Source of the DNA: a virus
Direction: 5' to 3' (one strand)
Length of the DNA: 56,557 nt
IMG/VR virus record: IMGVR_UViG_3300034109_000654
Coordinates: 1-56,557 of that record
Shown here in pieces: positions 6,110-40,227 of this stretch (the stretch's first letter is position 1; each line of letters opens with the position of its first letter). A program made the position numbers and the translations under genes. The notes under the pieces were generated by a model, which made no database searches, was not told the DNA's origin, and saw only the letters and a list, made by a program, of their open reading frames with translations.

Positions 6110-6307
6110 CTAGTGCTCGGGCGGGGCAGAACGGAGCAATACCGAAAGGTTCTGAGAGCCTCTGTGCGATTCCTGGGGGCGAGGGGCTGTCCAGAACCAC
6201 CCTGGGCGATGGAACGGGGCTCTCGGGGCCACACAGAGCCAGTACGAGGGGTTCCGGTGGGGTAGACTCAGGGCACTATCGTGGTTGGTAGTGCGGCATC
6301 AAGACAG
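6110..6307. other. Non-coding gap upstream of S2
   Basis: No convincing gene is seen in either strand of the stretch between the S2 promoter and the terminator at 6308. It contains a sequence starting ACCGAAAGGTTCTGAGAGCC (6141) that resembles ACCGAAAGGCTCTCAGAGCG at 23347, in another gene-poor stretch, suggesting a small repeated element. Function unknown. Confidence 0.4.
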
Positions 6308-6339
6308 AAAGACCCGGCAGCGTCAGCTGCCGGGTCTTT
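6308..6339 (-). terminator. Rho-independent terminator
   Basis: A perfect 14-bp stem (AAAGACCCGGCAGC / GCTGCCGGGTCTTT) with GTCA loop lies 50 bases beyond the stop of the gene at 6391-6882. The minus-strand side continues TTTCTGTCTT. It closes the leftward replication operon before promoter S2; its A/T-ended stem could also act rightward. Confidence 0.85.
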
Positions 6340-6390
6340 CTGTTGCCGGGGTTCCTGCCGTCAGGGGAGCGGCAGGCCGGACGCCCTAGC

Positions 6391-6882
6391 CTAGGCCAGA
6401 CCGAGCTCGGCCATGACCTCGTGCCCGCGAGCGATCTCCTCGGGGGTCGGAGCGGCCAGGATGTACGGGGCGTTCTTGCCCGGCGAGGCGTTACCCAGCG
6501 CCAGGCGACCGAGCACCCATTCCTGCGGCCCGCGCAGGACGGTCTTGAATCCCCGGATCAGCGCGGACCCGAACACCAGCAGGTCGTCGGCCCGCTCGTT
6601 CTCGTTGTCCAGCCGGATCACATCGACCCGGCAGAACTCGCTCTCCGGGCTGATGCGGGTCGCCATCACGTCGACCTCGATGGGGTGCACCAGCAACAGT
6701 TCCCCGACGAAGTCGGTGAACTTGTAGTCACCGCCCCCGCTGGACGGCAGCGCGAACGGGTCTCCGGTGCGCGGTGCCGGTACGGGGTCGCCGTCACCGT
6801 TGGCCGCGGCCAGGCCGCCGCGTGCCTTGGTGGCGGTGGCGCCAGTGGTTTTCTTCTGGTTGTCAAACGGGTTACCGGCCAC
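6391..6882 (-). CDS. Conserved replication-region protein, possibly OB-fold ssDNA-binding
   Basis: 163 aa. N-terminal 45 residues are low-complexity Gly/Ala/Pro/Asp; the rest alternates hydrophobic strands (GELLLVHPIEVDV, FCRVDVIRLD, LLVFGSALI) and ends PGKNAPYILAAPTPEE. This pattern is common in actinophage replication clusters, where it sits beside a Cas4-like nuclease, and could be an OB-fold single-strand binding protein. That idea is inference from strand pattern and neighbours. The GTG start follows two bases after the nuclease stop. Confidence 0.6.
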   Translation of the reverse strand: MAGNPFDNQKKTTGATATKARGGLAAANGDGDPVPAPRTGDPFALPSSGGGDYKFTDFVGELLLVHPIEVDVMATRISPESEFCRVDVIRLDNENERADDLLVFGSALIRGFKTVLRGPQEWVLGRLALGNASPGKNAPYILAAPTPEEIARGHEVMAELGLA

Positions 6883-6884
6883 GG

Positions 6885-8030
6885 TTAGTTCTCCTCGTTG
6901 GTAGTGGCGGGGGTGAGAAGCTCGATACAGGTCGTACCGAGCCCGGTGAGGTCGTCATCCCAGACTTCCTCGTACTGCTCGAAGATCGCGGCGGCATCGC
7001 TGCGGTCCTCGATGTTCAGGAGCGCCTGTCGGGCTTCGACATAGCGCACGGTCGCCGGAGTCGGCGCGGGGTGGTCGGCGGCGAGAGCCTTGGCCTTGAT
7101 CTCCTTGCGCCGGGACCGGACGTCGATGGCCAGTTGCATCCCCTCGCCGCCGCAGTAGAGGTCGAAGGGGATCACCTCGGCACGCTCGGGCTGGTCGGAG
7201 GGCAGGTGCACGACCACGCAGTAGTCCTGGTTGATCTTCGGCATGTCCGACCACGTCAGGCCGTCGAGATTGAGCATCTTGGTGGCGTATCCGTAGACGG
7301 CGAACTGGATGGCGAACTTCACCGTCGAGGAGTCGAAGCTCGTCGACTTCGAGGTCTTGAGGTCGCCCAGGATCAGCTCGCCGGTATCGACCACCCGGTA
7401 GATGCGGTCGATCCGACCGGCGATGGACTCCTGACCCCGGTCGTTGAGGACCACCCGCTCGGTGTACTCCGGCACCGCCACCAGACCCGCCTGGGTCAGC
7501 GCCTTGTGGTAGCTCTCGGCATACGGCTTGACGAGATCGGGCAACTGGTGGAACAGGATGCGGCCCATGTCGAGCTCGGCGAGCCAGTCGTGGACGCAGG
7601 TGCCGAGCTCCTTGGCATCCGCACCGCCGGCCAGGTCGTGAATCATGTCGATGATGCCGTTGATGTCGGTGGACTTGGCCTCGTTGCGGACTGCGCTCTC
7701 GTAGGAGCGGAAGGCTGCGGCCAGGGCCAGCTCGGTGTCGGTCATCGAGTCGTTGGCGGTGATCGCCAACTGCTGGGCGTAGAGCACCGACGAGACCTTT
7801 TCGCGGATCTTCCAGCTCATCAGGTTCGACTCGTCGGAGATCGTGTCGGCCAGCTTGGTCGCCCGGGTGTAGGTCGTCTTGCGGCCTGTGGTGGGCGAGG
7901 GCAACTGGTAACGCTGCCAGCGGTCGGTCTGGATGGTGACCTCCTCGCGGGGCACCAGCGGCGGTAACGGGTACCGCATGTACTCGGTGTACCGGGCGGC
8001 AGGGGAACCGCCGGGGACCATTTCATGCAC
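6885..8030 (-). CDS. Cas4/RecB-type PD-(D/E)xK exonuclease
   Basis: 381 aa nuclease probably used in phage DNA recombination or end processing. Motifs in order: GTCVHDWL (about 143), GRIDRIYRV (about 205, catalytic Asp region) and ELILGDLKTSKS (about 221-231, the D-x-K part of PD-(D/E)xK), followed by an FAIQFAVYGYA helix typical of RecB/Cas4 domains. The four-Cys iron-sulfur cluster of canonical Cas4 is not evident. GTG at 8030 is chosen because GAAAGGA lies ten bases upstream; ATG at 8021 is possible. The start overlaps the end of the small gene upstream. Confidence 0.85.
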   Translation of the reverse strand: MHEMVPGGSPAARYTEYMRYPLPPLVPREEVTIQTDRWQRYQLPSPTTGRKTTYTRATKLADTISDESNLMSWKIREKVSSVLYAQQLAITANDSMTDTELALAAAFRSYESAVRNEAKSTDINGIIDMIHDLAGGADAKELGTCVHDWLAELDMGRILFHQLPDLVKPYAESYHKALTQAGLVAVPEYTERVVLNDRGQESIAGRIDRIYRVVDTGELILGDLKTSKSTSFDSSTVKFAIQFAVYGYATKMLNLDGLTWSDMPKINQDYCVVVHLPSDQPERAEVIPFDLYCGGEGMQLAIDVRSRRKEIKAKALAADHPAPTPATVRYVEARQALLNIEDRSDAAAIFEQYEEVWDDDLTGLGTTCIELLTPATTNEEN

Positions 8031-10255: not shown

Positions 10256-12728
10256 TGTCGTCGCTCATCACCTCGGCTGCGTACATGCGTCTGGCGTCGG
10301 TGTCGGTGGCCGTGCCGGGGACATACCGGGTGCCCAGCCGCTGACCGGATGCGGTCTCGAGAAGGTAGAACCGCAGACCCTTGTCAATGGCCACCGCCAC
10401 TTTCTGCCGCCAGGCTTTGACGGCATCGCGGCGCATGGTGGTGTAGGAGTCGGGCTTGACCCCGGCGATGATGTCGGCGCGGGTGACGCCCTGCTCGGGG
10501 AACTGGGTGACGAAGCGCCGGATACGGATGGCGGTCTCGATCACCGGTTCCTCGGTGGGACGGGCCAGCACGATCTCGCCGATCATCGGGTCAAGCTCAC
10601 CGCTGGGGCCGGTGATGTACGGAGCCGCCAGCGGCTCGTGGCTCCGCATCAGCAGCGGCATCGGGTGCTCCATCTGCTCGGCGTTCTTCTGCTTGCTCGT
10701 GGTGAGTTGGATCTTCTTGCCGTGCGGGACACGTCCGTCGTCACCGACCAGATCGAAGTCCTCGAACTCCCACTGGCCGTCGCTGACCAGAAGCTCGGAG
10801 TCCAGGGCGGCGTTGAGCGCCGAGGAGCCGCGGCCGGAGGTCGGGTTGTTCTTGGCGGTGTGGTGGACGATCATCACTCCGGCGTTGGTGAGCCGCCGTA
10901 TCTGGTCGAACCGGGCCACCGCCTTGTTGATCTCGGTAGCGGAGTTCTCCTCGATACCCAGGCTCATGCGGGCGAAGGTGTCGAAGATGATGAGTCCGAC
11001 CCCCTGCCGGATCGCGTACTCGCACACCGCCGCCCACGCCTCCTTGGACGCGCCGAGCTGGATGATCGAGGAGCCCAGCCGGATGCCCTGGTCGAGGACC
11101 TCCTCGGGCACGTCGTTGACCGCGCACCACGCCTTCATCCGCTGCACCGCACCGGACAGACCCTCACCGGGCAGGTAGAGCACCTTGGTCTTGAGCACCT
11201 TGCGGCCCTGCCACGGGCGACCGGTGGCGATGCAGCACGCCATGTCCAACACGACGCTGGACTTGCCCACCCCGGGAGGTCCGATCACCGAGGACAGACC
11301 ACCGTGCTCGATCAATCCCTCGACGATGTACTCGGGGGCCGGCATGTCCCGCCAGTGGGAGAACGGCGCGATAACGGGGACACCCTGGATGTCGGGATCG
11401 AACACGTCGGGATCGGGCTGCTCGACCTCGTCGGGGAAGTCAGTGGGGTTCTCGAGCAGGACCGGCTCGAAGGCCATGTAGTCGTCGTCGAGCTCCTCAA
11501 TCGGCTCGTCGTGCTCGGAGGTCAACACGATGTCCTCGCAGAGATCGTGACCGGCCTGGTCGGACTCGATGGCGCGGGAGTCGACACCCTCCTCACGCTC
11601 GATGGTGGTCAGCGCCGGGCTGATCCCCTTGCCGTCCATCGTCGCGCCGACGTTGCCGCCGTACTCGATCCAGGCCACCGCCTGCAGCTTCGAGAGCGTC
11701 TGCTTGCCGGTGGTGCTGACGTAGTCGTCGAAGGGCTCACCCGGATTGTCGGTCCAGATGTGCAGCGGCGCGTTGGTCTCGGTGTAGATGCCCAGTGAGC
11801 AGCCCGCGTCGTGTGCGGTGGCCGACTTGGGGCTGGAATGTTCTCCCGGTGCCGTCCAGACCACACAGCCGCAGTTGTCGGGTCGGGAAGTCGGCACCCA
11901 GCCCAGCGGTTCGAGAATCTGCTCCCAGGTGGTGTTCTCGGCCCACAGGTCGATCGAGGACGCCAGCTCGGTGTCGACGCTGTTGTAGATCGAGCGGTCC
12001 AGTTTGACCGAGGACCGCTCTTGGATCACCGCCTGCAGCCAGGTCGGCAGCGGGTAGTCGCGCCCCACCAGTTCGTAGGGACCCTCGGGACGGGTGGACG
12101 GCGGGATCAGGACGTAGCGGCGGTCCCAGAGCACCGCGAAACCGTCCTCGCCGCCCCAGGTCATCGCGCCCATGTTGCGGGGCAGCACCGTTTCCTCGGG
12201 GACGGTGAAGTAGAAGTGCCCGCCGTCGCTGTGCACCCAGGTGCCGTCGGCGGTGCGGCTGCCGGGGGTGACCACCGTCGGCGGCAGGTCGGAGTCCTCG
12301 TCGCCGGTCGCCGCCTCGAGGAACCGGCGCTTCTGGGCCTCGGTGTCGCAGTCGACGACCACCAGCCCGGAGCCGCCGACCTCGACGGCGATGTTGACCG
12401 CGACCTGATCGCCGTACACGCTGATGTAGCGGTCCAGGTACTTGCTTAGGGTGGCCTTGTCGGAGGTCGCCAGCGCCAGGCCGGACGCGGACTTGGCTTT
12501 CTGCCAGTCCTTGTGGCCCGCCAGTTTCGCCCGCGCCTGGGCGGCGCGGTCGTCGGCGGCTTTCTTCTGCGCGGTGCGGCCGTCGAAGGGTTGCTTGGTG
12601 CCGGGGGCGATCAGCAGTAGCGACAGACCGGCGTCGGCAGCGGCCTTGAGAAACGAGCGGACAGCGTCATGGTTGGTGTTGTCGACACCGCTGCCCAGGA
12701 CAGCGGTGATCGGCGTCGAGCCGAGCAT
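10236..12728 (-). CDS. Primase-polymerase fused to RepA/DnaB-like helicase
   Basis: 830 aa. N-terminal part (about 20-270) is an archaeo-eukaryotic primase/polymerase domain: GLVVVDCDTE (about 124) gives the metal-binding acidic pair, and GGHFYFTVPEE and YVLIPPSTRP match later prim-pol motifs. The C-terminal part has a RecA-fold: Walker A GPPGVGKSS (about 484-492), GLIIFDTFARMS as Walker B, then VMIVHHTAKN and GRGSSALNAALDSEL. Such fusions prime and unwind phage origins. The ATG follows CGAAAGGTACG. Ends in a terminator hairpin. Confidence 0.9.
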   Translation of the reverse strand: MLGSTPITAVLGSGVDNTNHDAVRSFLKAAADAGLSLLLIAPGTKQPFDGRTAQKKAADDRAAQARAKLAGHKDWQKAKSASGLALATSDKATLSKYLDRYISVYGDQVAVNIAVEVGGSGLVVVDCDTEAQKRRFLEAATGDEDSDLPPTVVTPGSRTADGTWVHSDGGHFYFTVPEETVLPRNMGAMTWGGEDGFAVLWDRRYVLIPPSTRPEGPYELVGRDYPLPTWLQAVIQERSSVKLDRSIYNSVDTELASSIDLWAENTTWEQILEPLGWVPTSRPDNCGCVVWTAPGEHSSPKSATAHDAGCSLGIYTETNAPLHIWTDNPGEPFDDYVSTTGKQTLSKLQAVAWIEYGGNVGATMDGKGISPALTTIEREEGVDSRAIESDQAGHDLCEDIVLTSEHDEPIEELDDDYMAFEPVLLENPTDFPDEVEQPDPDVFDPDIQGVPVIAPFSHWRDMPAPEYIVEGLIEHGGLSSVIGPPGVGKSSVVLDMACCIATGRPWQGRKVLKTKVLYLPGEGLSGAVQRMKAWCAVNDVPEEVLDQGIRLGSSIIQLGASKEAWAAVCEYAIRQGVGLIIFDTFARMSLGIEENSATEINKAVARFDQIRRLTNAGVMIVHHTAKNNPTSGRGSSALNAALDSELLVSDGQWEFEDFDLVGDDGRVPHGKKIQLTTSKQKNAEQMEHPMPLLMRSHEPLAAPYITGPSGELDPMIGEIVLARPTEEPVIETAIRIRRFVTQFPEQGVTRADIIAGVKPDSYTTMRRDAVKAWRQKVAVAIDKGLRFYLLETASGQRLGTRYVPGTATDTDARRMYAAEVMSDDTEKSLE

Positions 12729-26305: not shown

Positions 26306-26586
26306 TATCACCGACCGACCATTCCGCAACTTCTCGGCCGGAGTAAAAATGCAGATCAGATAGGGCGGGCGGCCGATACAGCAAACGGGCGACCGACGAC
26401 GGGCACCCCGCCCAGCGAGCGGGCCGGTTGTCGGGCGGTGCCCGACAATTCTCGATAGATACGCCCGCCGCCGGCCGCCGCCGCCGCCGCGCCCGTGCGG
26501 CGGCACCGACCGCCATCGGGCCGCCCGAAAAGGGCAGACTCCACCCCCGGTTGGCCTGTGGTTGGCCTGCACTCACCAGGAGGGCC
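26306..26586. other. Gene-free gap with a palindrome
   Basis: No supported gene. TTGTCGGG (26428-26435) and CCCGACAA (26441-26448) form an 8-5-8 palindrome that could be an operator or hairpin. The rest is low-complexity GCC-rich sequence (26460-26500). A long rightward open frame starting here is antisense to real leftward genes. Confidence 0.4.
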
Positions 26587-26627
26587 GACCGGCCGCCCGG
26601 CCCCCGAAGGGGCCGGGCGAGCCGGTC
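26587..26627 (-). terminator. GC hairpin with UUCG-type loop after Cys-rich gene
   Basis: Inner stem CGCCCGGCCCC / GGGGCCGGGCG with CGAA (minus strand UUCG) loop, extended by GACCGG / CCGGTC, two bases after the stop at 26629. No T-run; probably stabilises the mRNA 3' end or attenuates transcription. Confidence 0.55.
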
Positions 26628-26628
26628 G

Positions 26629-27315
26629 CTAGCCGTCGAGCTCGCCCAGGGCGCGCAGGGCGTCCCGGCAGGGCTCGCAGCACCAGATCTCGGTGACCGC
26701 GTCGACGAGCCGCACCCGGACCGTCTTGCCCTCGTCGACCTTGCAGTCGTCGGCTTGCCCGGCCTCGCAGGCCCGAGTCAACGGAGCCGAGATGTGCTCG
26801 CGGCACCGGATGTACCCGAGCCGGTCGCGGTAGACCGCGTACTCGTTGCACCGCGCCGAGTAGCTCGGGCACCCGAACTCCCCGCAGCACCGGCCGTCGA
26901 CCTCGACCTCGCACGTCCAGCGGTCGGCGTGCTCGTAGCAGAGGTCGAGGCTCGTGAGGCCGCCGTCCTCGCCGTTGACCGAGATCCGCACGCCAGCCGA
27001 GCCGCCGCCGCACTCCGCGCACGGCTCCCCGACCGCCAGGTCGAACTGGCACAGCCACGCCGTGACGCCATTGCCGAAGGTCTTGCGACCCGCCGCCTCC
27101 TCCGAGCAGTCCTCGTTGGAGCACTCGAGGTGCGAGTTCGGCACCACGCACTCGATGTCGTGCGGGACGTTGGCGTCGTTGACCTGCGTCGGACACCAGG
27201 TCGAGCACTCCCCGATCCCGTGCATCGTCCGTGCCGGCCCGAGCCCGGTGATCAGGACGCTCACCTCGAGGCCGAGCCGCTCATCATTCGACACGAACCG
27301 CTGCGAATCGCTCAT
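26629..27315 (-). CDS. Large Cys-rich protein, probably multi-zinc
   Basis: 228 aa with over twenty Cys, many paired: ECSTWCPTQVND, LECSNEDCSEEA, EPCAECGGGS, WTCEVEVDGRCCGEFGCPSY, IRCREH and EIWCCEPCRDAL. Arranged like consecutive zinc ribbons. ATG with AAGGAGG seven bases upstream. No catalytic motif is recognised; such Cys-rich proteins in actinophages are unassigned. Preceded by one copy of the 63-bp hairpin repeat. Confidence 0.75.
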   Translation of the reverse strand: MSDSQRFVSNDERLGLEVSVLITGLGPARTMHGIGECSTWCPTQVNDANVPHDIECVVPNSHLECSNEDCSEEAAGRKTFGNGVTAWLCQFDLAVGEPCAECGGGSAGVRISVNGEDGGLTSLDLCYEHADRWTCEVEVDGRCCGEFGCPSYSARCNEYAVYRDRLGYIRCREHISAPLTRACEAGQADDCKVDEGKTVRVRLVDAVTEIWCCEPCRDALRALGELDG

Positions 27316-27400
27316 GCGATCCTCCTTGCGAACATCGGGCGACAGCCGCACTCCCCGGGATTGGGGAGCCGCTCGAAGCCGCCCTGCGGGAACCTCCCGC

Positions 27401-27463
27401 CCACGGGCACCGCGCGACATGCGCGGGGCCCGAGGGAAGGGGCGGGGGCCGAAGCCCCCGCCA
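27401..27463 (-). repeat. 63-bp hairpin repeat, copy 1
   Basis: Nearly identical to 28031-28092, 630 bases away. On the minus strand it gives GGCGGGGGC-UUCG-GCCCCCGCC and then a second GC stem around GCGCG. It follows the stop at 27469 and may be a portable 3'-end or attenuator module. Confidence 0.75.
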
Positions 27464-27468
27464 CCCGC

Positions 27469-27591
27469 CTACACCGGCTGCGGACCGAACTCGTCGAAGC
27501 AGTCGGTCACCGCGTGGGCCGGGCACGCGCCGTGGTCGAAGATCTCGACCTCGACCCCGCACCAGCAGCACTCGCCGAGCCACTCGCTCAC
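27469..27591 (-). CDS. 40-aa zinc-knuckle protein
   Basis: VSEWLGECCWCGVEVEIFDH then GACPAHAVTDCF: Cys-x2-C ... C-x2-H pattern of a compact zinc ribbon. GTG overlaps the previous stop. Followed by hairpin repeat copy 1. Confidence 0.65.
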   Translation of the reverse strand: MSEWLGECCWCGVEVEIFDHGACPAHAVTDCFDEFGPQPV

Positions 27592-27773
27592 AGCCCGGCC
27601 TCCTTCGCGTCGCGCACCCACTCGGGCAGCGCCGCCGCCCGGCGGTCGAGCTCGTCGGCCACCCACTCGGGCAGCCGCTGGGCGGCGCGCTTGGCCGCCC
27701 TGGCCCGACGCCGCTCGGCGTCCCGGTCCCGCCGGGCCGCCTCGCGGTCGAGGCGCTGGGCGCGGGCGCTCAC
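27588..27773 (-). CDS. Small Arg-rich helical protein
   Basis: 61 aa, GTG overlapping the upstream stop. Highly charged helix (LDREAARRDRDAERRRARAA) followed by two similar LPEWV segments. Possibly nucleic acid-binding. Unknown. Confidence 0.65.
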   Translation of the reverse strand: MSARAQRLDREAARRDRDAERRRARAAKRAAQRLPEWVADELDRRAAALPEWVRDAKEAGL

Positions 27774-27919
27774 TTGCCCGCGCCCTTCACCCGGTGCGGG
27801 GTGCGGGGCTCGATCACCTTCGGTGACCGCGTGCTCCGCCAGACCCAGCGGTCGGCCTGGGTGCTCCAGACGCTCTCGCGTTCCGTCCACGGGGCGACCC
27901 ACGGTGTCCATTCGCTCAT
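27770..27919 (-). CDS. 49-aa Trp-rich basic protein
   Basis: MSEWTPWVAPWTERESVWST continues WVWRSTRSPKVIEPRTPHRV. ATG with GAAAGG upstream and stop overlapping the next GTG. Six Trp in the first half. The coupling supports coding. No family. Confidence 0.55.
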   Translation of the reverse strand: MSEWTPWVAPWTERESVWSTQADRWVWRSTRSPKVIEPRTPHRVKGAGK

Positions 27920-28030
27920 CGGCGAACCTTTCGTCGTGCGAGGCATCGCATGTCGGTGATCCCGACCGCTGTCACCCGGTGATTCCGGGCGCGCTGTGCA
28001 CCTCGCGGTTTCTCGAAGGGCGAACCCTTC

Positions 28031-28094
28031 CCACGGGCACCGCGCGCCAGGCGCGGGGCCCGAGGGAAGGGGCGGGGGCCGAAGCCCCCGCCCC
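28031..28094 (-). repeat. 63-bp hairpin repeat, copy 2
   Basis: Second copy of the 27401-27463 element, differing by a few bases, ten bases after the stop at 28104. Stem GGGGCGGGGGC / GCCCCCGCCCC with CGAA loop (UUCG on the minus strand). Confidence 0.75.
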
Positions 28095-28103
28095 GCCTGG
28101 CCG

Positions 28104-28469
28104 CTAGGCCGTGGCCGGAGCCTTGCGGCGGCTGCGCTTGGGCGCGGTCGCCAGCTCCTTGTTGACCCGGCCGACCTTCCCGGCGTGGGTCGGGAGGACG
28201 AAGGGCGCCTTGTCGCCCTTCCGGTGCGCCTCCTTGACGAAGTCGCCCTCGTCGTAGCGCACCGTGATCTCCTCGGTGCCCCGGGTGAACACCGTCACCC
28301 GGCCGTCCGCCACCGGCTTCCAGCCGTTGTCCTCGGCGCGCTTCTTCGTGTTGAGCCGGAAGAAGTGCGCCTTCGGCAGCCCGGCGTCGAGCGCCGCCGC
28401 CCAGCTCGGCTTGGCGATGGCCGCCTCGAGGGCAGCGCCGGCGATCTTCTTCGAGGAACGAGCAGCCAT
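28104..28469 (-). CDS. Paralogue of the H1-like-tail protein, basic C-terminus
   Basis: 121 aa. AHFFRLNTKKRAEDNGWK and VTVFTRGTEEITVRYDEGDF-V align with AHMFRQHTLTLAKNAGYK and VRFRKGNVLVTVTYSEQDFV of the 24209-24751 protein, so both carry the same small domain. Here the basic tail is C-terminal and short (KRSRRKAPATA). ATG with GAAGGAG. Probably DNA-associated by analogy. Long structured leader upstream. Confidence 0.75.
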   Translation of the reverse strand: MAARSSKKIAGAALEAAIAKPSWAAALDAGLPKAHFFRLNTKKRAEDNGWKPVADGRVTVFTRGTEEITVRYDEGDFVKEAHRKGDKAPFVLPTHAGKVGRVNKELATAPKRSRRKAPATA

Positions 28470-32422: not shown

Positions 32423-33121
32423 ATGGCCTCACAGCAGCTACCTGCGCCCAACACCATGACCAGTGTTCAGCCGATGGGCCTGTCGACGTATCACCGCAAC
32501 GCCCGGCGCGGCAACGTCGATGCGATCGTCGGAAGCCTCAAAGCGAATGGGCAGTACAAGCCCATCGTGGTCAACATCGGCACGCACACCGGACGGCCCA
32601 ACGAGGTCCTCGCCGGAAACCACACCCTGATGGCGTTCCGCAATCTGGCCGAGATGTATCCCACCGACGAACGATGGAACGAGATTCAGGTCTACTGGGT
32701 CGATGTCGACGACGACCGCGCCACCCGCATCGTGCTGGCCGACAACCGCACCGCCGAGGACTCGACCTACGACGATGTGATGCTCTACGACCTCATCAAG
32801 AGCCTGGGCGATGACCTGGACGGCTCCGGGTTCACCGACACCGACGTGGACAAGCTCAGCTACCTGGACAAGATGTTCAGCCCCGACGACGGCGACGACG
32901 GCCCCGACGGCTACGACACCACCGACAACGAGACCGTGGTGATCGACGTCGGCAAGGTCCCCCCGGTCTGCGCCGAGGTCGGCGTGGTGGTGGGACGGAT
33001 CAGGTTCAAGATGGCGCGGGACCTGTATGTGTCGTGGTACGACGAGCTCCGCGAGCAGGTCGGGTACGACGACGAGGCGCTGTCCAGCGCCGTCCAGCAG
33101 CGGCTCGGAATGATCCAGTGA
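32423..33121 (+). CDS. ParB/sulfiredoxin-fold protein
   Basis: 232 aa. Residues about 12-115 form a ParB-like domain: YHRNARRGNVDAIVGSLKAN, GQYKPIVVN, EVLAGNHTLMAF (the GNHR-like catalytic loop, here GNHT) and VLADNRTAE. C-terminal acidic and variable. TATGGT lies seven bases before this ATG, preferred over the ATG at 32411. Such phage ParB proteins are often linked to DNA modification or nicking rather than partition. The next gene starts inside its stop codon, so the two probably work together. Confidence 0.85.
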   Translation: MASQQLPAPNTMTSVQPMGLSTYHRNARRGNVDAIVGSLKANGQYKPIVVNIGTHTGRPNEVLAGNHTLMAFRNLAEMYPTDERWNEIQVYWVDVDDDRATRIVLADNRTAEDSTYDDVMLYDLIKSLGDDLDGSGFTDTDVDKLSYLDKMFSPDDGDDGPDGYDTTDNETVVIDVGKVPPVCAEVGVVVGRIRFKMARDLYVSWYDELREQVGYDDEALSSAVQQRLGMIQ

Positions 33122-34650
33122 TCCTCAAGGTCGTGTCCACCGAGGACATTCGCCCCTCCACCTACAACCCCCGCCAGGCCGACCCCGAACGCCTCGAGCT
33201 GGTCAAGCTGTCGCTGTCCAAGCTGGGCTGGCTGCTGCCGATCTACGCCGACGCGGGCGGGGAGATCCTGTCCGGCCACCAGCGCCACTACGTCGCCACC
33301 GAGATGATGGGCATGACCGAGGTGCCCGTCGCCTACACCAAGGCCATGACCCTGCCGCAGCGCAAGGCCATCAACATCGCGTTCAACCGTGGCACCAACG
33401 ACATGGAGTCCCACACGCTGACCGGCACCCTGGCCGAGGCGATCAAGAGCTCTGGCGTGGTGGAGATGGCGGCGGCGCTGCCCGACGCCACCGGGACCAT
33501 GCCCATCCTCGACGCCCGCCAGGAGCCCATCGGCCCGATCCTCAAGGCCAACAAGGGCCGGTGGAGCCGTCACGCCAAGAACGTCAGCCGGATGCTGATT
33601 CACCGGGGCGTGGAGATGCCGGTGATCGTCGACGAGGACAACCGGGTCATCAACGGCATCGGCCGGCTCGAGCAGTACGCGATCCTGAAATACACCACCA
33701 TCGACGTGCTCCGGCTGCCCAACAACGTCGCCAAGGTCGCCGAGGTGATGCTCAATCTGCTCACGATGGACTTCGACCTGCACCGCCGCTATTCCGACGA
33801 ACTGCGCTACAACAGCTTCCGGCGGGCCTACACCACCCGCAAGCAGCTCGGTGTCGGCATGACCTTCGCCGCGGTCAACTCCAACCGGCGCATGGAGTTC
33901 GACATCCTCAACCCGACGCACGCCAGTGGCTGGAAGAAGGTCTACGGGGACCGGATTCTGGACTTCGGCGCCGGGCATCTGTGGGAGACCGAGATGCTCC
34001 GCAAGGCCGGATGCACCGTCAGCCCGTTCGAGCCCTACCACGTCGGCCAGGGCGGTCAGATCGACAAGCAGAAGTCCCTGGCGCTGACCGATGCGTTCCT
34101 GCGCGACGTGGCCGGCGGGGTGGACTGGGACTCGATCTTCCTGTCCTCGGTGCTCAACTCGGTGCCGTTCGAGGCCGACCGGTTCCACATCGTGCAGCTG
34201 CTCAACGCGCTGGCCCAGCCGACCGAGACCCATCCTGAGGGCGCGGCGGTGTACGCGGTGGCGCTCTCGACGGCCAACGACTCCTGGCGGGACAACACCG
34301 CTCAGAAAACCGGGCTGAACAAGACCCACTACGACCGGCCCAGCTTCCGGCTGGACCACGAGCCAGGCGTGAGCCTGGCCGACTTTCTCGAGGTCCCGAA
34401 GATTCAGAAGTACCACTCGATGCCGGAGTTCCGGGCGCTGTTCGCCAGCGGGTTCGGCAAGGCTCAGACCAACCATGTGGGAACCAACTGCCAGGGCGTG
34501 TTCCGCGACCCGCTGCCGGTGGACCCGGCCAAGCTGGCGGCGGCTATCGACTTCGAGTTCGAGCTGCCCTATCCCGACGGGACACACATGGAGCGGTCAC
34601 GTCAGGCCAGGGCGGCGTTTGAGCAGCGGCTGGGAATGACGCTGCCCTAG
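33118..34650 (+). CDS. ParB-ParB-methyltransferase fusion
   Basis: 510 aa. N-terminal ParB-like domain (STEDIRPSTYNPRQADPERL, EILSGHQRHYVA). A second ParB-like segment (about 143-205) has ILKANKGRWSRHAKNVSRML, PVIVDEDNRVINGIGRLEQY. Residues about 275-480 contain a Rossmann methyltransferase core: RILDFGAGHLWETEMLRKAG (motif I), then DWDSIFLSSVLNSVPFEADR, which resembles motif IV plus the VLN-x-VP helix of some DNA-modification-associated methyltransferases. GTG overlaps the stop of the upstream ParB gene. Probably recognises and modifies DNA or nucleotides; substrate unknown. Confidence 0.8.
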   Translation: MILKVVSTEDIRPSTYNPRQADPERLELVKLSLSKLGWLLPIYADAGGEILSGHQRHYVATEMMGMTEVPVAYTKAMTLPQRKAINIAFNRGTNDMESHTLTGTLAEAIKSSGVVEMAAALPDATGTMPILDARQEPIGPILKANKGRWSRHAKNVSRMLIHRGVEMPVIVDEDNRVINGIGRLEQYAILKYTTIDVLRLPNNVAKVAEVMLNLLTMDFDLHRRYSDELRYNSFRRAYTTRKQLGVGMTFAAVNSNRRMEFDILNPTHASGWKKVYGDRILDFGAGHLWETEMLRKAGCTVSPFEPYHVGQGGQIDKQKSLALTDAFLRDVAGGVDWDSIFLSSVLNSVPFEADRFHIVQLLNALAQPTETHPEGAAVYAVALSTANDSWRDNTAQKTGLNKTHYDRPSFRLDHEPGVSLADFLEVPKIQKYHSMPEFRALFASGFGKAQTNHVGTNCQGVFRDPLPVDPAKLAAAIDFEFELPYPDGTHMERSRQARAAFEQRLGMTLP

Positions 34651-35144
34651 CTGGGCAGGCTGAACGGCAGGTTGGCCTCGGCAGCGAAGCTGCGGGTGGG
34701 TTCGTAGGCGCTGAACTCCGGCAGCTTGCGCCAGTAGCTCTCGCGGGGGACAGGCTGGGAGTCGATGCCGTACTCGAGGTACATCGCCCGGGTACGCGGG
34801 TTGGATTCCAGGCCGAACCACAGTTCCTCGGCGTTGGGTTCCCCGTACTTGTCCACGATGCGGCGCAGGTTGTCATGCTTCTTGTGGTGCGGCATCCCGT
34901 CAGGGGTCTGGGAGAAGAAGGCGTCGTCGGGCTCCCAGTCCAGTTGATCCTTGATCCGCGCCAGAGTGGCCTCCATCGCCGATTCCGGCCGGGCGGTGGT
35001 GATGACCACGGTGGCCTCGTTGCGGGCCAGCAGCTTGGGAATCCAGGCCCGATAGGTCTCCTGCGGTATCCGCACGCTCAGAGGCCGTTTGTCGTTGTAG
35101 AGCACCTTGGCGAGCGTGAAGTTCAGGTCGAGTAGGGCGAACAT
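34647..35144 (-). CDS. HAD-fold protein with altered catalytic residues
   Basis: 165 aa, HAD superfamily. Motif I is LLDLNFTL (Asp6-Leu-Asn8), where phosphatases have D-x-D; motif II VVITTARP; a Lys region HHKKHDN; motif IV FGLESNPRTRAMYLEYGI where relatives read DDxP. The loss of the second Asp and of the acidic pair suggests a non-hydrolytic or unusual HAD. ATG 35144 chosen because homologues start M-x-ALLDLN; longer starts at 35162/35165 exist. TATAAT (35190-35185) drives it. Convergent with the ParB fusion (four-base overlap). Confidence 0.7.
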   Translation of the reverse strand: MFALLDLNFTLAKVLYNDKRPLSVRIPQETYRAWIPKLLARNEATVVITTARPESAMEATLARIKDQLDWEPDDAFFSQTPDGMPHHKKHDNLRRIVDKYGEPNAEELWFGLESNPRTRAMYLEYGIDSQPVPRESYWRKLPEFSAYEPTRSFAAEANLPFSLPS

Positions 35145-35197
35145 AGGTGTGACGACTCCCATCAAAAGGCATACTTGTCTAAGTATTATACCATATA
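35145..35197 (-). promoter_or_regulatory. Promoter of the HAD gene
   Basis: Minus-strand TATAAT (35190-35185) is a consensus -10; no clear -35 is seen. The start site is expected near 35178, 15-35 bases before the candidate ATGs. Confidence 0.65.
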
Positions 35198-35247: not shown

Positions 35248-35967
35248 ATGACACAGGACATTGCGGAGAGCTTCTCACCCGGTGGCTGGAAGTTCACCGC
35301 TGAGGTCACCGACGTGTTCGACGAACATGTCTCCGCGTCGGTCCCGTATTACCCGCTGATTCAGAACATCGTCGCCGAAGCAGCCGACTGGTTGCTCCCC
35401 GATGGTGGGGTCTACGTCGATGTCGGAGCCTCCACCGGAACCACCGCGGCTGCCATCGCCAGACGCCATCCCGACCGCCATATTCGGACGTACCTCTACG
35501 ACGAGGTGCCCGAGATGCTGGACAAGGCGATGGTGAAGCTGGCCGGGTTCGACAACCTCAAGGTGGAGCGCCGGCACAAGAACGTCCTGGCCGGAATGGA
35601 TCACAGCCCGTCCGATCTGGTGACCGCGCTGTTCACCTTGCAGTTCATCGCCCCGGAGAACAGGCCCAAGGTTCTCAACGAGCTGCGCCGCCGAGCCAAG
35701 CCCACCGGAGCGATCATCGTGGCCGAGAAGATCAGGCCGATTCACCCGATGTGGGCTGAGATCGCCATTGACGCCTCACACGACTTCAAGGCCGACCACG
35801 GCCTGTCCGACACCGCGATCCGGCAGAAGGCCAAGGCACTGCGCGGGGTTCTGCGGCCCTCCACCGAAGCGGCCCTGCGGTTCAGCCTTGAGGAGGCTGG
35901 GTGGTGCAATCCGGAGATTCTGTTCCGGTGGCATCAGTGGGTGGTGGTCGGAGCACTGGCCTCGTAG
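35248..35967 (+). CDS. CmoA-like SAM-dependent enzyme
   Basis: 239 aa, aligning along its length with E. coli CmoA, which makes carboxy-SAM from SAM and prephenate for tRNA cmo5U. Shared: GGWKFTAEVTDVF (against GDWTFDERVAEVF), SVP-x-Y, motif I YVDVGASTG, FTLQF, IIVAEK, SHDFKADHG (HHDFKRANG) and the hydrophobic C-terminus. The Tyr matching CmoA Tyr39 is kept (Tyr35), but positions matching Asn132 and Arg199 are Leu128 and Ala195, so carboxy-SAM binding is doubtful. TACAGT eight bases before the ATG suggests a leaderless mRNA. Neighbours (ParB, ParB-methyltransferase) suggest a nucleic acid modification role. Confidence 0.85.
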   Translation: MTQDIAESFSPGGWKFTAEVTDVFDEHVSASVPYYPLIQNIVAEAADWLLPDGGVYVDVGASTGTTAAAIARRHPDRHIRTYLYDEVPEMLDKAMVKLAGFDNLKVERRHKNVLAGMDHSPSDLVTALFTLQFIAPENRPKVLNELRRRAKPTGAIIVAEKIRPIHPMWAEIAIDASHDFKADHGLSDTAIRQKAKALRGVLRPSTEAALRFSLEEAGWCNPEILFRWHQWVVVGALAS

Positions 35968-38420: not shown

Positions 38421-38511
38421 AGTGGCTCCTTTCCGGGTGTCGTCCCAGGTAATAACACTTTCTGTAATAGGTATTTTACCAGAATGCCGGTAGCACACCT
38501 AACCTTTGCGT
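38421..38511. promoter_or_regulatory. Divergent promoter gap S5 (regulator / terminase)
   Basis: Contains ATAGGTATT (38467-38475), a good operator half-site with a poor partner at the 9-4-9 spacing. Leftward: TTATTA-like -10 before the regulator. Rightward: TAACCT (38500-38505) six bases before the terminase ATG (leaderless), and a second possible TATTTT -10 at 38472. Confidence 0.6.
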
Positions 38512-40227
38512 ATGCAAATAACGGCCTCTGATATTTACAACGAGGACGGCACGTTCTCCTCCGAGCGCGCCGCCAAGGTTTACGAGCAGGCGCGGCAATG
38601 GCCGCCGGAGCAGAAGATCGCCGCCCTCAAGTGGCTCGAGTCCGCGGTTCAGCGCGACCGCATCCGCAGCCGCTACTCCAACGCCGCCGAGCTCGCTCAG
38701 GCCGTGGACCCCGACTTCGTGATAACCCCGGCCCTGAAACTGATCGCTGACGCCATCGAGACCGTCCTGGCCAAGCCTCGCCACAACCTGCTCATCACGA
38801 CACCTCCGCAGGAGGGCAAGTCGACGATGTGCGCGGTGTGGGCTCCGATCCGGGCCTGGCAGCTCAACCCCAATCGCCGGGTGATCCTGTCCTCCTACGG
38901 CGACGACCTGGCCCGCACCCATTCCACCAACTGCCGCAGCGTCATCGAGTCGCACGGCTCCGACGTGTTCGACCCGCTGACCGGAGCGCGGGTCGAGGAC
39001 AAGCTGGGACTCAAGATCAGCACCAAGTCCCGGCGCATCGACGCCTGGAAGATCGAGGGTGCCCGCGGCGGCATGGTCGCCGTCGGCCTGGGATCGGCGA
39101 TCACCGGCCGCGCCGCAGACCTGTTCATCATCGACGACCCGTACAAGAACATGCAGGAGGCCGACTCCATGACCCACCGCGAGAAGGTGGACATGTGGAT
39201 GAGTTCGGTGGCCCTGACCCGCCTGTCGCCGGAAGCCTCGATCATTCTGGTTCAGACTCGCTGGCACCCCGAGGACCTGGCGGGTAAGACCATCGCCGCC
39301 GAGGCCGAGCTGCCCCGCGATCAGCGGACCTGGCGCTACATCAACATTCCGGCCATCAGCGAGGAAGGTGTCTACGACTCGCTGAACCGGCCGCCGGGTA
39401 AGGCGATGATCTCCGCGCGTGGCCGCACCAGGGCAGAGTTCGATGCCACCCGCCGCCAGGTCGGCGAGCGGGTCTGGTACGCGCTGTACCAGGGGATGCC
39501 GACCAACCCTGCCGGCGGTCTGTTCGAGCGTGCCTGGTTCGATCCTCGCGTCAAGTCCACCGATGTCATTCAGCCGGTCGCCGCCGTGGTGGGCATCGAC
39601 CCCGCCGATTCCGGCGAGGGTGACGAGACCGGCATCATCGGCGGCGTGCTGCAGCCAGACGGCACCGTGGTCCTCACCGAGGACTGGTCGGGACTGCACA
39701 CCGCCGAGCAGTGGGCACGCAAAGCGGTCGATCTCGCGCTGACCATCGGCGCCCGAGAGATCGCTATGGAGGGCTATGCCACGTTCCGCACCTACGAGGC
39801 GGTAATTCGGCGCTCCTACCAGGAAGCCCACCGAGAAGCGCGAGAGGCGCTGGCCGAGGGCAAGGAACTGACGGCACTGCAACTCAACGCGCTCTCACCC
39901 TCCCAGCCGTTCATCATCTCCAAGTACACCGAGGCCGGTGATCCGGTGGGCCGCGCCGCCGCGCTGCGCCAGGCGCTGGAACTCAAGCGAGCACGGGTCG
40001 TCGAGTACAAGCTGGGCGTGTTCGAGGACCAGGCCGCGGACTGGCAGGCCGGTCAGCACTGCCCTGATCGGGTGGCGGCAGCGGTGATCTGCCACTGGCG
40101 GCTGTCCCGTCTGGGGTCGGGTCAGACCGACTACGCAGCCCCTCTGCACGGCACCGCCAGACCCGCTCCGGACTGGCTGACCCGGAAGGTGAGCGGCTCG
40201 CCCTCGTTACCAGTACGAAGCCGTTAG
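38512..40227 (+). CDS. terL: Terminase large subunit
   Basis: 571 aa packaging motor and nuclease. ATPase: TTPPQEGKST (Walker A-like, about 101), LFIIDDPYKN (Walker B, about 206), VQTRWHPEDLAG coupling motif. Nuclease: VVGIDPADSGEGDETG (about 361) and further acidic residues. ATG at 38512 is chosen over an in-frame TTG six bases earlier because TAACCT is spaced six bases from it. First gene of the rightward virion operon. Confidence 0.95.
   Translation: MQITASDIYNEDGTFSSERAAKVYEQARQWPPEQKIAALKWLESAVQRDRIRSRYSNAAELAQAVDPDFVITPALKLIADAIETVLAKPRHNLLITTPPQEGKSTMCAVWAPIRAWQLNPNRRVILSSYGDDLARTHSTNCRSVIESHGSDVFDPLTGARVEDKLGLKISTKSRRIDAWKIEGARGGMVAVGLGSAITGRAADLFIIDDPYKNMQEADSMTHREKVDMWMSSVALTRLSPEASIILVQTRWHPEDLAGKTIAAEAELPRDQRTWRYINIPAISEEGVYDSLNRPPGKAMISARGRTRAEFDATRRQVGERVWYALYQGMPTNPAGGLFERAWFDPRVKSTDVIQPVAAVVGIDPADSGEGDETGIIGGVLQPDGTVVLTEDWSGLHTAEQWARKAVDLALTIGAREIAMEGYATFRTYEAVIRRSYQEAHREAREALAEGKELTALQLNALSPSQPFIISKYTEAGDPVGRAAALRQALELKRARVVEYKLGVFEDQAADWQAGQHCPDRVAAAVICHWRLSRLGSGQTDYAAPLHGTARPAPDWLTRKVSGSPSLPVRSR

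Follow-up and report, generated by a model that had tools for sequence, protein, structure and literature searches.

Phage proteins joining two ParB domains to a methyltransferase fold, encoded beside a CmoA-like enzyme, are candidate DNA carboxymethyltransferases

Introduction

What is the task of a phage protein in which two ParB-like segments are joined in a single chain to a methyltransferase-like domain, and which chemical group would such an enzyme transfer when a gene for a CmoA-like protein stands close by? From SAM and prephenate, CmoA forms the rare cofactor carboxy-S-adenosylmethionine (Cx-SAM). Natural DNA carboxymethylation was first shown in December 2025, by way of a C5 enzyme: in the Synechococcus phage S-B43, CmoA feeds CmoX, a cytosine-C5 carboxymethyltransferase, after which the ligase CmoY adds glycine, and ParB genes are frequent neighbours (PMC12783734). 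CmoX is recognized by an SPPC motif, by Arg350 in motif X, and by the profile PF00145. In a preliminary search the same authors found CmoA paired with no enzyme of the N6 or N4 type (PMC12783734).

Here we examine one such fusion protein, its gene neighbourhood and its relatives. The family is already known as PHROG 5475 and through the annotation of Gordonia phage Evaa, where the depositors labelled the relative gp2 a ‘ParB-N-terminal-like domain methyltransferase’; what we add is the link of the fusion to a cassette that contains a CmoA homolog.

Results

The window, by which we mean the whole stretch of DNA that was analysed, is 56,557 nt long, comes from an IMG/VR virus record, and is possibly an incomplete genome. 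It is actinophage-like, with genes for a terminase, portal, major head protein, DNA polymerase, primase/helicase, and endolysin. Across its whole length it contains 391 GATC sites, more than the 293 that shuffled sequences would lead one to expect. At 26428-28107 (+) there is a 559-codon open reading frame that matches nothing in Pfam, NCBIfam, or PHROG; this could be a true gene, of unknown function, or else a shadow frame.

The cassette is placed immediately ahead of the packaging genes, of which the terminase large subunit (38506-40227, +; PHROG 38, E 3e-92) is the downstream landmark. Its first gene (32423-33121, +) encodes a single-domain ParB-like protein of about 232 aa, equivalent to Evaa gp1 (PHROG 6392 and 723, E 6e-58 and 5e-54). 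The second is the fusion gene (33118-34650, +), a real open reading frame of 510 aa whose GTG start at 33118 overlaps the stop codon of the ParB gene. The third, on the opposite strand (34650-35165, −), encodes a HAD-phosphatase-like protein with the segments DLNFTLA, TTARP, and LESNPRTRAMY (PHROG 32036, E 2e-19). Most HAD phosphatases have a second Asp in motif I where this protein has Asn, so that its motif reads DLN in place of DxD; the equivalent in Evaa, gp4, is annotated ‘phosphatase’. The CmoA-like protein, a 239 aa member of the Cx-SAM synthase family, follows at 35248-35967 (+).

Over its whole length the fusion matched Evaa gp2 (54% identity, E 1e-172), and residues 1-506 matched PHROG 5475, whose function is unknown (E 5e-90). 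The original prediction, made from the letters alone, had read two ParB-type segments followed by a Rossmann methyltransferase, and it proposed structure prediction as a check. In an AlphaFold2 model built with 47 relatives (mean pLDDT 91.3, pTM 0.88) the protein is modelled as two ParB folds followed by a class I SAM-methyltransferase fold, and since all three were recovered, the observation of a double-ParB-methyltransferase chain holds; neither result that would have spoken against it, a missing SAM-type fold or a missing second ParB fold, was obtained. The first ParB domain (residues 1-95; 33118-33402, +), with an LSGHQRHYVA box and the segment FNRGTND, was matched weakly by Pfam ParB_N (E 0.009) and strongly by ParB PHROGs over residues 1-99; in VIA-align its structure matched the CTP-bound ParB 7bnr with Z 11.5 and 2.0 Å over 92 residues, and by its ParB fold and GxxR box it belongs to the ParB_N superfamily. 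The second segment (residues ~130-215; 33505-33762, +), with a VINGIGRLEQYA box, gave no match with family profiles and was therefore examined in two ways. Profile-profile alignment (hhalign) related it to the first segment (P 8e-7, probability 91.5%), and when folded alone (pLDDT 86.9) it matched the ParB/Noc/SerK/sulfiredoxin superfamily (Foldseek E 4.8e-4; Z up to 8.8), SerK/SbnI structures being among the matches. By these two lines it passes as a ParB superfamily domain in its own right.

For the catalytic domain (residues ~218-468; 33769-34521, +) the closest solved fold is METTL6 with bound SAH (Z 13.0, 3.1 Å over 188 residues). The two motifs that had been picked out from the letters are present, motif I as DFGAGH at residues 282-287 and SSVLNSVP, within SSVLNSVPF, at 343-350; there are also an acidic residue, E305, in FEP, and the segment PKIQKYH. 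In the family alignment D282, G284, G286, and E305 are invariant. The matches to enzymes with bound SAM or SAH, motif I, and the acidic residue after strand 2 together identify a class I SAM-dependent transferase. Four basic residues, R235, R236, K428, and K431, are likewise invariant and are candidates for contact with a carboxylate or with DNA. A PDB sequence search with the single protein found no match, while the family profile found ParB-type proteins and UbiG O-methyltransferases only. The fold relatives of the domain (METTL6, glycine N-methyltransferase, and UbiG-type enzymes) methylate ring nitrogens, amines, or oxygen. CmoB was not among the 50 VIA-align matches listed, which excludes nothing.

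Several familiar identities could be set aside. The motif of N4/N6 DNA methyltransferases, [DNS]PP[YFW], is missing in 129 of 129 family members, which rules out that class. The C5-type motif (PPC, SPC, or GPC) is absent from the C-terminal half of all 129, and PF00145 has no match in the window, so the fusion is not CmoX or another C5 enzyme. Nor is it CmoB, whose profile PF08003 matched nothing in the window and did match the E. coli control.

A further suggestion in the original prediction, that the VLN-x-VP helix resembles methyltransferases of DNA phosphorothioation clusters, did not survive. The fusion had no hit at E<=1 to TIGR04096, the DNA phosphorothioation-associated methyltransferase, and a true TIGR04096 protein used for comparison (locus L146, its gene beside a cysteine desulfurase gene) aligned with the fusion family profile over motif I only, with a probability of 4.5%. 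Ordinary class I methyltransferases carry ‘VLEHVPD’ where the fusion has its VLN-x-VP segment, and this placement agrees with the METTL6 and UbiG matches. In a review of phosphorothioation we found nothing on the family.

Although the chain had been thought unusual, it proved to be a conserved family in many phages. Relatives drawn from viral contigs, bacterial genomes, and phage records amount to about 129 loci, of which 51 form a non-redundant set at <90% identity. A CmoA homolog stands beside the fusion gene in 48 of these 51, on the same strand and usually as the next or next-but-one gene (the count leaves out two shadow ORFs). Fifty have a ParB gene upstream of the fusion gene, the remaining locus being at a contig edge, and the HAD-like gene accompanies the cassette in 45, reversed in the window and in Evaa and on the same strand in most loci. 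The hosts and source genomes include Alphaproteobacteria, Rickettsiales, Vibrio, Photobacterium, Verrucomicrobia, Anaerolineae, Rhodothermia, Pseudomonas, Aeromonas, and Gordonia. The records first tested had a CmoA homolog in 14 of 14. Among the 50,697 records of the phage collection only about 100 have one, yet all 14 of those with full-length fusion relatives do, 12 of them belonging to one Pseudomonas phage genus; of the 22 matches to its ParB part only in the search of phage records that found Evaa gp2, none was seen among the CmoA hits.

The three loci that lack CmoA are L055, L125, and L136. In L125 and L136, both bacterial contigs, the HAD-like gene is the last of the cassette and non-phage sequence follows, which suggests prophage remnants. 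L055 is a viral contig with intact packaging genes, in which ParB gene, fusion gene, and HAD-like gene are directly followed by the terminase; perhaps this phage relies on a CmoA of its host.

The family profile TIGR00740 found the CmoA-like protein of the window with E 1e-29 and 104 bits, below the curated cutoff of 193 bits, as were all CmoA matches; CmoA was nevertheless the best family by far, the best PDB matches of the protein are the CmoA structures 4gek and 1im8 (E. coli and H. influenzae), and it also matches PHROG 4752. Homology therefore suggests that the protein makes Cx-SAM. It keeps Y39, D62, G64, S66, D89, and E164 (nearly every CmoA homolog of the cassette retains Y39, D62, and S66) and has Ala at the position of Arg199, through which E. 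coli CmoA binds the carboxylate of Cx-SAM (PMC3663124). This substitution, together with the scores below the equivalog cutoff and the pair Glu199 and Asp164 in 24 of 46 CmoA sequences, could mean that the enzyme has changed, so that it produces a different analogue of SAM or serves as a methyltransferase in its own right, in succession with the fusion, and that the mark is not a carboxymethyl group. We consider that quite unlikely. Of the 46, 14 have Arg199 alongside the same fusion, even the divergent sequences match CmoA better than any other family, and the loss of Arg199 is not disqualifying because the verified CmoA of S-B43 also lacks it, having Glu199; Lys200 and Arg203 are common to the S-B43 and window proteins. 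A further argument comes from Aeromonas phage HJ05 (L004), which has the fusion and CmoA but no CmoX. It encodes a class I DAHP synthase (6257-7420; TIGR00034, 275 bits, over the cutoff) beside the terminase and an Asn-synthase-type protein (10287-11504; over the Pfam cutoff), both deposited as ‘hypothetical protein’. DAHP synthase is the entry enzyme of the pathway towards prephenate, the co-substrate of CmoA, and its presence fits a demand for prephenate. The Asn-synthase-type protein may be a CmoY; no such amide ligase was found in the window, Evaa, PA_L9, or SM1.

Does the fusion stand in for CmoX? No C5-methyltransferase (PF00145) occurs in the window or in Evaa, HJ05, PA_L9, and SM1, which are complete in the sense of being deposited phage records. 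Three related contigs do have one, but its motif X reads GN.V, with the ordinary Asn and not the CmoX Arg, so we rejected these enzymes as CmoX and take them to be ordinary C5-methyltransferases. Conversely, the full fusion is absent from four phages with a C5-methyltransferase beside CmoA (S-B43, TurkishDelight, PaBG, and an SPbeta-like phage); PaBG and Erwinia phage Alexandra match its ParB part only. The CmoA of Streptomyces phage TurkishDelight is 56% identical to that of the window, and its cluster runs ParB-ParB-CmoX-amidoligase-CmoA; from this order we conclude that the fusion occupies the CmoX position.

Other arrangements around CmoA were also seen. Alcaligenes phage Afa-NA1 (L035; 5947-6699 and 9172-10491) has a CmoA with Arg199, no C5-methyltransferase, and no ParB fusion, and 2.5 kb from its CmoA there is a D12-class adenine methyltransferase with a DPPY motif. 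A similar D12-class enzyme lies near CmoA in Erwinia jumbo phages (Alexandra, L036, 11650-12492). It is possible that these are N6-adenine carboxymethyltransferases.

The position of the fusion also bears on the nature of its target. The second ParB domain resembles free serine kinases of the SerK/SbnI type as well as ParB, the closest methyltransferase fold is that of a tRNA enzyme, METTL6, and the cassette adjoins packaging genes; on these grounds the ParB domains might be nucleotide-binding or kinase-like, and the substrate a free nucleotide, an RNA, or a packaging protein. However, the fusion takes the place of a DNA enzyme, CmoX, in related clusters, and ParB genes accompany CmoX too (PMC12783734), so a target other than DNA seems to us highly improbable.

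A last alternative makes the fusion a plain DNA methyltransferase that depends on SAM, with CmoA serving tRNA wobble modification or some other use and the genes held together as a mere shared block before the terminase. The catalytic fold is a generic class I fold, and the trees give this account some room: the agreement between fusion and CmoA trees (Mantel r 0.63) is no closer than that with the terminase (0.87 and 0.80), and common ancestry by itself could therefore explain why the genes stay linked. Since all the genes follow the terminase, however, tree congruence is uninformative on partnership. A role in tRNA modification is unlikely in the actinophages, because CmoB (PF08003) was found neither in the window nor in any of the four complete phages, with a positive E. 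coli control, and Corynebacterium glutamicum, a control from Gordonia's order, had no match for CmoB or CmoA. The pairing with CmoA across very different phages, the mutual exclusion of fusion and CmoX in the genomes checked, and the DAHP synthase of HJ05 likewise speak against an ordinary methyltransferase, which we regard as unlikely.

Discussion

The fusion is probably a phage DNA-modifying enzyme that takes a carboxymethyl group from the Cx-SAM made by the adjoining CmoA-like enzyme and transfers it to a base of the phage DNA. Our best reading is thus a second class of phage DNA carboxymethyltransferase, structurally unrelated to CmoX. Carboxymethyl rather than methyl transfer is probable because the fusion gene almost always adjoins a CmoA-like gene, and the name methyltransferase, in contrast to the architecture that came with it, therefore probably names the wrong group.

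As we picture it, the CmoA-like protein would convert SAM and prephenate to Cx-SAM, as its homologs do; the two ParB domains, perhaps with the stand-alone ParB protein encoded upstream, would hold or scan the DNA; and the METTL6/UbiG-type domain would transfer the carboxymethyl group, a step suggested by the gene pairing and by its replacement of CmoX. The group probably goes to an amino or ring nitrogen, a base nitrogen being likeliest and oxygen less likely, because the domain has neither the catalytic Cys motif of C5 enzymes nor the (D/N/S)PP(Y/F/W) motif of N4/N6 enzymes. We also considered, and set aside, that the base is first hydroxylated and the group then transferred to oxygen; a thymidylate-synthase-family enzyme is absent from the window, Evaa, PA_L9, and SM1, although HJ05 has one, and a search for TET/JBP enzymes, which matched nothing even in its controls, is uninformative. 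The modified genome would then resist restriction, and some phages, such as HJ05, may go on to cap the carboxylate by means of an amide ligase. More tentatively, the family may represent a phage enzyme class, widespread in phages and prophages of several bacterial phyla, that uses Cx-SAM for N-linked (or O-linked) carboxymethylation of a DNA base and so produces an undescribed natural base.

If true, a second enzyme class replacing CmoX would widen the chemistry of DNA carboxymethylation and point to a new modified base, and what ParB domains do when phages modify their DNA becomes testable. In the literature on phages SM1, PaMx31, and HJ05 we found no DNA-modification data; the cultured phages Evaa, SM1, and HJ05 offer DNA open to direct examination.

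How does the fusion compare with known systems? With METTL6, a tRNA m3C methyltransferase, it shares the fold of the catalytic domain at 14% identity, but METTL6 is a eukaryotic tRNA enzyme that uses SAM, not Cx-SAM. TIGR04096 proteins, judged by the member in L146, carry their methyltransferase domain at the N-terminus, show no ParB part, and end in a long C-terminal region of another kind; what they share with the fusion is motif I of the generic class I type and a VxNVI segment of loose similarity. Phage ParB-domain DNA methyltransferases such as PHROG 498 also join an N-terminal ParB to a methyltransferase; the fusion matches PHROG 498 by its ParB part only, and differs in its second ParB domain and in a catalytic domain that resembles METTL6 and UbiG and lacks [DNS]PP[YFW]. 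CmoB, the tRNA carboxymethyltransferase (PF08003; PMC4482062), shares the class I SAM fold, the presumed use of Cx-SAM, and a CmoA partner, whereas the fusion has ParB domains, a presumed DNA rather than tRNA substrate, and no PF08003 match. The closest parallel is the CmoA-CmoX-CmoY system of S-B43, in which a phage CmoA homolog likewise stands beside a transferase, often with ParB genes. Unlike CmoX, the fusion has no catalytic PC motif and belongs to a different fold class; and unlike that system as a whole, its cassette carries two ParB domains within the transferase chain, usually has no ligase, and conserves a HAD-like gene.
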